A DNA stretch of 64,000 nucleotides from Margaritispora aquatica (Eukaryota > Ascomycota > Leotiomycetes > Helotiales > Discinellaceae): contig VJWN01000003.1 in the NCBI GenBank assembly GCA_007644065.1, forward strand, positions 1 to 64,000, given 5' to 3'. This document shows positions 33,258 through 36,200 of this stretch, piece after piece. The first letter of the stretch is position 1; every line of letters begins with the position of its first letter. The translations under genes and the position numbers were made by a program. The notes below the pieces were generated by a model that saw nothing but the letters and a program-made list of their open reading frames with translations, was not told the origin of the DNA and did not search any database.

Positions 33258-36200
33258 TTACCACCAGGATTGGCCGCCGCCACCTCCAGATGGGTTGCCG
33301 TATCCACCACCACCATATCCACCGCCACCTCCACCGGAAGCACCACCACCATAAGATGGAGCGCCACCATAAGCAGCTTGAGGAGGAGCTTGGTATCCAC
33401 CACCGCCACCATAAGAAGGAGCTGGAGCACCGCCGAAGCCTGGTCCACCACCAAATCCTGGTCCACCAGCGCTGGCACCTCCACCGAACTTACGGAAATC
33501 ACGGTTGGCACCGCCGCCACGACCGCGTCCGCCTCCAGAACGACCACCTCCACGACCTCCACCACCGCCACCAAAGCCGGATCCTTCGCGAGCAATATTT
33601 TCGAGGAAGGCTGGAACTTCTTGGTTGGCCTCCTTGAGAAGCTCAATGAGATCACGGACAACACCACGGTTTCCACGGTTGAAGAAAGCAGTGGCGATTC
33701 CAACATTGCCTGCACGTCCGGTACGACCGATTCTGTGAACATAGTCGTCGATATCGGTAGGAAGATCATAGTTGACGACATGCTGAACATTCGAAATGTC
33801 AAGTCCCGATAAGGTTGTTAGCTAATGAGCTGTATAATGTCTTGAATGAAAATAATTTGAATGAGAAGATGTTGAAAAGCGATCTGGAAAAGCTAAATGG
33901 TAAATGGGTATCAATGAAATAACAGAAGGAAAAGTCCAAAATTGGCAGCTCCAGGAAATTATTGAGGCGGATTGCCCGAAGCAGCTTCAGCCTCAGCCTT
34001 TAGGATCCGCAGCTTCTTGGCATGTCGAACACCATTCATGTGGGTGGTGTATCTCGCAGGCGTAGAGGCAGCGTGTTGGCACTCTTCGCAAAAGTACTTT
34101 TTCAATAGGACGGCCTTTTGGCTACCACCACGACCCTGTGGAATCTTGGTGATGCCCTTAGACCTGACATTGTGGGTCTCCGTGCGCTTGTGAGCGTCAA
34201 GCTTGGCCTGGTTCGGATATGTTTGTTTGCAAGGAATGCACTTGTACTTCTGCGCCTCCATTGCCCTGTCTCTCGTAGCTTTTGATAGAGCAGCGTGGAC
34301 TCCAGGACCCAGGTTAGCTTTCCACTGGCGGTCGTAGGCACGTTTGATCTCTAGTCGGTCGGCGTCCAAAGCAGCAAGTTCATCAATGGTGAGCTGTGCA
34401 GGAGACCCACTGATGCCCTCTTTGATTGACATATGAGAGCAGCAGCCGTCGTATTCAAAGTATTTTGTGGCCCAAGGTTTGAGGTTGGGCATGTAGTAAT
34501 CCTTCTCTCTGCTCATGAGAGCCCAGAAGTAGAGAGTGAAGACATTTTCCAGAATTTTCATCAGGGCCCGCAGAGTGAACCGATGGTTGTAGTGAGGTAT
34601 GTCACACCAGACAAGTACCCCCTTGCTAGTGATCGTATAACCCTCTTCCACCGCTGCTTTGACGTAATAGGGAGTGCCGCTGGGAAATGTATAAGGATTA
34701 AGCTTGTCGTAAAGTTCAAATCTCCTCTTCACACCTTCGACGGCGTCCGTTCCACTACCAACGTATATTCTGGGTCTTGTCTCCTCCTTCTCGAGAACAA
34801 GGAGGTACACTGCCCAGCAGAAGGGGTCATTTTTCGTGAAGTTTTTTGGTAGTGCTTTGAAATAGGCAATGGTTGGAGGAGTCTTAGACTTGAGTACGAA
34901 TAACAATCCACTTGCAAATTGCAAGCTGGAGCGGAAGAACACGAACGACATGATCTCCTTTGAAGGGAAGATGGTGTCGAAGAGGAGATTTTTCAGGCAG
35001 GGGGTGGTGGTCGATAGCAGGAGCCAGCAGAACCAAAGAACGAACTCGGCCACATCCTCAGTCTCGGGACCCATGGTAGAATTGGAGTTTTTGTGTGAGG
35101 AACGCAAAAGTACTTTTGCGTATTGGAGGCCTTTCGAGGAGATTGGCAGGAGTACTTGGGAGTTACAATGATGGTGGTATGATGAAGGTGCGGATGCGTC
35201 CAGTCGTGGTGAAGTCGAGATAGTTGTTCGAAGGAGTTTCCAAGGTAAGGTTTGCGAATTTGGGGTGAGGGGTAATTCTAAAATCCCATTTGTGGGTGGA
35301 AGTCGTCCAACTTGGAAGGAGCACTCGCTCACTCGACTAACCCATCTCGAGGAACGGTTTGGGAAGGAAGGAACCTCAGGAACAACACTACTTAGTGTCC
35401 TGGCTACAAACAACGCGTTAAGAAGAATAGAATGTTAGACGTACCCTATTTAACAAGTTAGCATATGATTCCAAATTTAGAATGAGTTAAAGAAACCAAT
35501 CTGAGGATATTTGACAGGCAAGGGAAGCAGTGATGGGGTTCTTGATATTGGACGTTGTCCAATCTTATCCGGAGCCGACACGGATGTTGATGCGGCTTAT
35601 CGGGATGATACCCGAGCAAGAAACATCAGCATCGAGTGAAGATTAACTGAGCCTGGACAAGATACAGCTGATGGAACCGTCAAAGTACTTTGGAGCCGAG
35701 ATCAAGGAAGCCAAGATCCTTGCATGGTGAAAACAAGGTCCTTGAGGGAGCAATCCAATTTGCCCATAGCGTTCAGCCAAATAGTCTCGGGTGAACTAAA
35801 ATAACATCCACTAAGATGTACTTGAATCTCACAACAAGAAGTAGTCATTGAATGTAAAAGTACTTTTAAACAAGGACCTTGAAATAGAAGACTACCGAGG
35901 TAGAATAAGTCCAGGCTCCAGTCACGACTTCCAGATCATCTTCAAAGGCACCATGTGGAGATGCAGTTGAATCTCTTTTGAGAAGCAAGGGATTGAAGGT
36001 GTTACATAATTTGCCAATTATTTATAAATAATAGTGGCTGTGAAGGAGAGGATTGTACCTCGACCTAAGAACCTCAAGCAAGGTCCTCAGGTAGAGATGT
36101 AGCAGAATTCCCACTGCCAGGGTTGAAGCATAACAGGAAATTTGAAGGGATTGCGGAGAATGAAAGACAGGGTTGAGAAAGGATAAAAACATACCGAGCA

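Follow-up and report, generated by a model that had tools for sequence, protein, structure and literature searches.

Spliceosomal homing introns ("shintrons") have been described in mirusviruses; passages of the paper on these elements (PMC12768974, Nat Microbiol 2025) give 132 of their 334 nucleases as GIY-YIG enzymes and place the introns mostly in virion morphogenesis genes. The present analysis concerns a comparable element of a fungus: an intron-like insert with a gene for a predicted GIY-YIG nuclease, located within the DED1 gene of Margaritispora aquatica (Ascomycota; Leotiomycetes; Helotiales; Discinellaceae). The window, i.e. the whole stretch of DNA that was analyzed, comprises 64,000 nucleotides (positions 1..64,000, forward strand) of contig VJWN01000003.1, assembly GCA_007644065.1. 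Like the mirusvirus introns, as characterized in the same passages (PMC12768974), the inserts described below have spliceosomal donor and acceptor sites (an acceptor in four of the five copies), predicted homing-type nucleases, a target-gene preference and no group I/II signature. They differ from these introns of viral genes in residing in nuclear housekeeping genes of ascomycetes and in encoding an enzyme with C2H2 fingers. Neither "fungi" nor "fungal" is used in the main text of PMC12768974, and a scan of viral contigs for relatives of the nuclease yielded 101 pattern stretches and 0 relatives.

In comparison with I-TevI, from the td group I intron of phage T4, and with the GIY-YIG homing enzymes encoded by group I introns of fungal mitochondria, the host intron looks spliceosomal and is nuclear, the protein carries paired C-terminal C2H2 fingers, and its sequence lies beyond the reach of the Pfam GIY-YIG model at E<=0.001. 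Inteins with homing endonucleases, as described in excerpts of PMC2814812, resemble the present inserts in being placed at highly conserved codons of essential genes; according to the same excerpts, conserved sites are not favored by ordinary spliceosomal introns, in contrast to inteins and group I introns. The opposite arrangement, with a spliceosomal intron lying within a homing endonuclease gene, is known from myxomycete rDNA (PMC9548176). Inteins are removed as protein, whereas the inserts studied here would be removed as RNA. Introners, reportedly studied by Gozashti in 2022 and Huff in 2016, are mobile spliceosomal introns that create new introns. The present inserts would share with them the character of mobile spliceosomal introns, but they have no terminal repeats or target duplication, occur as few old copies, and carry a nuclease in place of a transposase.

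The term "shintron" was found in no other relevant paper of the open-licence PMC literature, and no account of spliceosomal introns that carry nuclease genes in a cellular genome was found in that collection, which most preprints lie outside. An earlier note on this DNA, made from its letters, had known of no described case of such a domain order at such a site. This statement has to be narrowed in view of the mirusvirus introns (PMC12768974, November 2025), some of which carry GIY-YIG enzymes. The window element would be a cellular representative, equipped with zinc fingers, of a kind that was described only very recently, and it recurs in three fungal classes.

The DED1 insert and its nuclease gene

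DED1, the yeast homologue of which is essential, is located on the minus strand, as is the nuclease gene. The following features were identified:

37529..37792, minus strand: first exon of DED1, starting with Met at 37792, followed by an ordinary short intron of ~70 nt near residue 65, with in-frame stops at 37597 and 37549
36195..37528, minus strand: DED1 exon that precedes the insert, with GTT GCT GCT CG at its end (Pfam DEAD/Helicase_C; upstream boundary approximate, residue 66 of the relative P0052 aligning at 37528)
33808..36194, minus strand: intron-like insert of 2387 nt, donor GTATGT, phase 2 (CG|G), holding the nuclease gene (joined flanks in the DED1 frame)
36189..36194, minus strand: donor GTATGT (direct reading)
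35075..36194, minus strand: leader of 1120 nt, the last 215 nt ahead of the start codon being without ATG
33959..35074, minus strand: nuclease gene, 371 codons plus stop (40 relatives in the protein database)
34409..34822, minus strand: predicted GIY-YIG catalytic domain, residues 85-222 (structure match and invariant residues)
34172..34246, minus strand: C2H2 finger 1, residues 277-301 (C279, C282, H295, H301; Pfam in relatives and alignment)
34022..34096, minus strand: C2H2 finger 2, residues 327-351 (C329, C332, H345, H351; Pfam in relatives and alignment)
33808..33958, minus strand: trailer of 151 nt (intron measurement)
33817..33821, minus strand: CTAAC branch-site-like motif, 9 nt ahead of the junction, the expected AG being missing (direct reading)
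33258..33807, minus strand: DED1 exon downstream of the insert, through to the stop (direct reading and DDX3X alignment)

The insert splits the sequence ATAVAAR-GLDI between Arg and Gly, and the next exon opens with G GGA CTT GAC. Removal of the insert produces an uninterrupted DED1 frame, with 121 residues aligning gap-free to human DDX3X. These results agree with the earlier note, which had placed a 371-codon gene on the DED1 strand, inside a 2.39-kb interruption at this Arg-Gly junction. The only other DED1 intron seen is that of ~70 nt near residue 65, whose presence rules out that the part of DED1 located 5′ of the insert is a single exon. No insert-free second copy of DED1 was identified in the M. 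aquatica genome, the next best match showing 43-46% identity.

The nuclease open reading frame (ORF) starts with an ATG at 35074 and encodes 371 aa; counted from a TTG further upstream, the same frame stays open over 484 codons, and the plus strand over 33959-35074 is broken by several stops. The ORF length expected by chance was taken from the longest ATG-initiated ORF in 300 dinucleotide shuffles per intron. Since the maximum for the DED1 intron was 197, compared to the 371 codons observed, the nuclease ORF is far beyond chance. Each of the four sister ORFs presented below is likewise longer than all 300 shuffles of its own intron.

The encoded protein contains the motifs W87-A-V-Y90 and R102-I-Y104-V-G as well as R118 and E176. 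Residue conservation was counted over an alignment of 45 relatives, and Y90, Y104, R118 and E176, which we take from their order and spacing to be the counterparts of Y6, Y17, R27 and E75 of I-TevI, are invariant in 45/45 rows; the GIY-YIG-like motifs noticed earlier, including the Glu, were borne out. The predicted structure displays the beta-beta-alpha-beta-alpha core of the GIY-YIG fold. The GIY-YIG assignment of this predicted domain is supported by (i) VIA-align re-examination of Foldseek candidates, (ii) the order of secondary-structure elements and (iii) the invariant residues. In BFVD nothing was found at E<=0.001, the top rows being phage intron and GIY-YIG nucleases. At E<=1, GIY-YIG was absent among the Pfam matches listed (25 of 73 families).

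Both C2H2 fingers postulated in the earlier note are corroborated by conserved Cys/His residues, retained in 40 to 44 of the 45 rows for finger 1 and in 35 to 36 for finger 2 (the remainder being mostly gaps), though in Pfam the protein of the window, taken by itself, matches them below threshold only. The Pfam labels in the nuclease family are zinc fingers (plus the host part of the fused model P0032, see below), and matches to PF23217 (DUF7066) fall on the fingers. NCBIfam offered no fitting model, its weak matches to zinc-binding models of IS1/IS256 being taken as finger noise. The protein is predicted to be an endonuclease of two parts, in which a GIY-YIG domain resembling that of I-TevI would cut and the two C2H2 fingers at the C-terminus would read the DNA.

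The sole above-cut-off match to PF01541 (Pfam GIY-YIG) reported for the M. aquatica genome (C26:122461-122613) lies in a 52-aa frame with an internal TAA.

Copies in the M. aquatica genome and in other fungi

The M. aquatica genome (42.36 Mb, 49 contigs) was searched with five nuclease queries; only the best candidates were scored, and more distant copies are possible. All five queries returned the same five copies, each (5/5) sense-oriented within an intron of a conserved gene (lengths are those of intron, leader and trailer):

33808..36194 of the window, minus strand: DED1 copy; 2387/1120/151 nt
C45:292 kb, sense to host: clathrin heavy chain (CHC1) copy at GLGLE/RSHM; 1661/355/232 nt
C45:301 kb, sense to host: pyruvate carboxylase (PYC) copy at SGDML|NPKKKYN; 1568/373/115 nt
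C1:629 kb, sense to host: GCN1 copy at KALVAFS/PKTLKE; 1750/379/213 nt
C2:288 kb, sense to host: ATP synthase beta (ATP2) copy at ALTG|LTIAEE; 1917/528/111 nt

Host identity is supported by Pfam matches: PF00637 (clathrin), PF02786 and PF02436 (PYC), PF24916 (fungal GCN1 HEAT) and PF00006 (ATP2). The host frame was kept on joining the flanks in 5/5 inserts. When aligned with solved orthologues, the joined flanks were gap-free across the join in DED1 and clathrin, and showed a one-residue gap near the join in PYC, GCN1 and ATP synthase beta (the solved match of GCN1 being a chain with the listed molecule name "Ribosomal protein L19"). A GT donor, a CTAA-/CTAAT-type branch site and an AG acceptor were recognized in four of the five copies (CHC1, PYC, GCN1 and ATP2), DED1 being the one copy without an AG acceptor. 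None of the five upstream exons ends in AG. The stretch free of ATG before the start codon measures 215, 248, 238, 271 and 90 nt in the five copies, values that are individually weak; the scarcity of upstream ATGs was set aside as proof of an internal promoter, being only suggestive.

Just after the ATP2 insert (L010), the ATP synthase beta of M. aquatica reads LTIAEEFREEGQD, compared to LTIAEYFRDEEGQD in the solved chains 5lqx and 8f2k, i.e. a change plus the loss of one residue where the sequence adjoining the insertion site is very conserved.

Three protein database searches revealed relatives that are mostly metagenomic. Eight of them are fused gene models, which expose the host gene:

P0052, Pseudogymnoascus sp. 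VKM F-4515: DED1
P0032, Cryoendolithus antarcticus: pyruvate carboxylase
P0048, Oculimacula yallundae: pyruvate carboxylase
P0049, Zymoseptoria tritici: aconitase
P0051, Lachnellula subtilissima: aconitase
P0053, Elasticomyces elasticus: aconitase
P0050, Aureobasidium pullulans: clathrin heavy chain
P0046, Cladorrhinum sp. PSN259: ATP synthase alpha (partial)

Since nuclease ORFs are fused with housekeeping exons in these database models (P0032, P0046, P0048-P0053), they are chimeric; their names, such as "C2H2-type domain-containing protein", "Aconitate hydratase, mitochondrial" or pyruvate carboxylase, are misleading. The eight genera span the Leotio-, Dothideo- and Sordariomycetes. In one search 6/6 hits were fused models, a proportion uninformative on intron frequency because the search was aimed at long proteins; it is the choice of host genes, not the fraction of fused models, that speaks to intron residence.

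An insert-bearing DED1, which the earlier note had proposed to look for in other fungi, is represented by P0052: after the same ATAVAARG there is an apparent intron read-through, followed by a nuclease 46% identical to that of the window (350 columns). According to this gene model, the Arg-Gly site of DED1 is occupied in both Pseudogymnoascus and the window, at codon resolution.

A tree was calculated from 172 core columns of 56 rows (57 were aligned and P0042 was removed as too short; P0047 was left unaligned), with a bootstrap that was not fully settled. The five M. aquatica copies need five changes on this tree, forced by starred branches, and therefore represent old separate lineages, not recent duplicates; their scatter equals that of shuffled labels. 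Together with P0016 of Paraconiothyrium, the DED1 copies of the window and of Pseudogymnoascus belong to a single starred clade of 22 rows (97/85). The ATP synthase alpha copy P0046, a partial model with a long branch, is unplaced on the tree. Its four best BLAST matches are P0041, P0044, the M. aquatica ATP2 copy and P0045, and the motif APDWYINPDF is limited to these five sequences (5/57 rows). The idea that the M. aquatica ATP2 and Cladorrhinum ATP1 inserts occupy an identical homologous codon was rejected, as the alignment puts them three codons and one base apart.

The leader of the DED1 insert contains one further feature, revealed by a palindrome search:

35106..35867: leader stretch between two AAAAGTACTTTT palindromes, 750 bp apart

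AAAAGTACTTTT is present at 20 places in 42 Mb, compared to 8 for the same letters read backwards. The DED1 insert holds three copies (34090, 35106 and 35856), and one is located at the ATP2 branch/acceptor site (C2:287611). Two others lie at or in gene C23:2148515-2150285, which has a weak, sub-threshold DUF3435 match, and two flank gene C11:612788-615601, which by eye resembles a DUF3435-like gene. Since copies also occur at these two genes, AAAAGTACTTTT may be the mark of another, small mobile element. In the DED1 insert, the 750 bp from 35106 to 35856 would explain the surplus length of the DED1 leader (1120-750=370), and 35106..35867 is possibly a separate insertion. At the edge of the window, positions 1-8000 are AT-rich (25-32% GC per 2 kb, compared to 41-53% elsewhere) and resemble fungal repeats mutated by RIP (repeat-induced point mutation).

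Competing explanations for the inserts

The element of the window very probably belongs to a family of spliceosomal homing introns in fungi. This reading is based on (i) the ORF, its predicted fold and its conserved active site, (ii) the five copies, each sense-oriented in an intron of a different conserved gene, with intact joined frames, (iii) the lack of transposon-type ends, (iv) the occupation of the DED1 Arg-Gly site in a second genus as well and (v) the five separate lineages in one genome. The earlier proposal of a homing endonuclease in a spliceosomal-type intron is supported in substance; its refuting pattern, a presence at unrelated loci without a link to introns, did not appear, every other locus found being an intron of a highly conserved gene. 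The nuclease would probably be made from a transcript starting within the intron, and would cut the matching gene on an insert-free allele at or near the same codons. Repair off the insert-bearing allele would then copy the intron with the nuclease gene into the cut. To judge from the splice sites, the spliceosome would take the intron out of the host mRNA, so the cost to the host would be low.

Several observations weigh against this reading. Concerning the enzyme, PF01541 matches 0/45 members at E<=0.001 (all 14 families at that threshold), no NCBIfam GIY-YIG model was matched at E<=1, and Foldseek by itself gave no match at E<=0.001; the GIY-YIG membership put forward earlier is upheld by the predicted structure and by no sequence profile. 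P0043, a short sequence outside the 45, has Lys for the catalytic Glu, at its truncated end. Concerning splicing, the 3′ end of the DED1 intron reads TTATC|GGGACTT in the assembly, with no acceptor AG after CTAAC, and alternative acceptors (CAG/TAG upstream of CTAAC; an exonic CAG) were discarded by eye because of stops or a frameshift. The absence of AG at 33808-33821 is due to a fault in the assembly, to use of a non-canonical acceptor or to damage in this allele, and since no AG precedes the exon, the DED1 copy is classed only as working like, and related to, spliceosomal homing introns. Concerning the sites, the read-through of P0052 implies a donor within the Gly codon, shifted by two bases from that of the window; recurrence at the same site is limited to DED1 and based on a gene model; and each species has a site of its own in PYC (three species), aconitase (three species) and clathrin (two species). 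Finally, M. aquatica has a short ordinary intron, in the same position, at three of the seven non-DED1 sites occupied in other fungi (these positions were read from gene-model breaks, with a possible error of about a codon):

aconitase TPK-D: own short intron of 54 nt
aconitase NACG|P: own short intron of 117 nt
ATP synthase alpha G|EWFRD: own short intron of 125 nt

The position of the Cladorrhinum ATP1 insert coincides with the last of these. Such a pattern also fits the view that the nuclease gene is mobile alone and settles in pre-existing introns, which serve only as a harbour. We regard this as unlikely, since M. aquatica has no intron at the other four sites (PYC IALEH, PYC GGNGF, clathrin before CHFDEW and aconitase EYH), which suggests that nuclease and intron travel together. 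Moreover, homing enzymes require a conserved target, which is supplied by exons and not by intron interiors. The three short introns may have lost a nuclease, or may be introns of the kind later entered by one.

If these elements are homing introns, it is conceivable, as a tentative extension, that homing is a route of spliceosomal intron gain. An intron would enter an uninterrupted, invariant housekeeping codon by cut-and-copy and spread among ascomycetes, and decay of the nuclease would leave short introns such as the three mentioned above.

It is improbable that the nuclease is a tamed host gene (e.g. a regulator of the gene in which it resides) that has lost homing. A regulatory role could draw on the intact active site and fingers, and the DED1 lineage is bound to one host site in two genera, but different species are occupied at different sites of the same host genes, and divergence is fast, with 46% identity between the two DED1-site copies.

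It is very unlikely that the inserts are introners, i.e. DNA transposons doubling as introns, in which the nuclease would be a cargo akin to a transposase. Single-ORF, intron-like inserts dispersed over a genome would fit such elements, but terminal inverted repeats do not exceed those of shuffled ends in any of the five introns and junction repeats are 0-1 nt long. Furthermore, nucleotide similarity between the introns is confined to two short stretches (DED1 vs PYC), and the copies are old separate lineages, with no burst.

A self-splicing group I/II intron, or an assembly artefact, is scarcely credible: the acceptor AG of DED1 is missing and GIY-YIG genes often reside in group I introns, but Rfam gave no match at E<=1 in window positions 33500-36500 and, in the loci that contain the other four introns (L007-L010), a lone sub-threshold match to an unrelated sRNA family (L007, minus strand, 25.7 bits, gathering 49), four of the five copies have GT, branch site and AG, and the same nuclease family is found in independently sequenced fungi.

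Implications for spliceosomal introns

The origin and spread of spliceosomal introns is an old open question. The recurrence of the inserts in five genes suggests that a selfish, parasitic mode of spread, directed at particular sites, is also open to ordinary spliceosomal introns in nuclear genes. Their presence in cellular nuclear genes of three ascomycete classes makes it possible to examine this idea in crosses, by splicing assays and through cutting in vitro. If they do home, these introns would be natural selfish elements at essential genes, equipped with a compact, finger-guided cutter.
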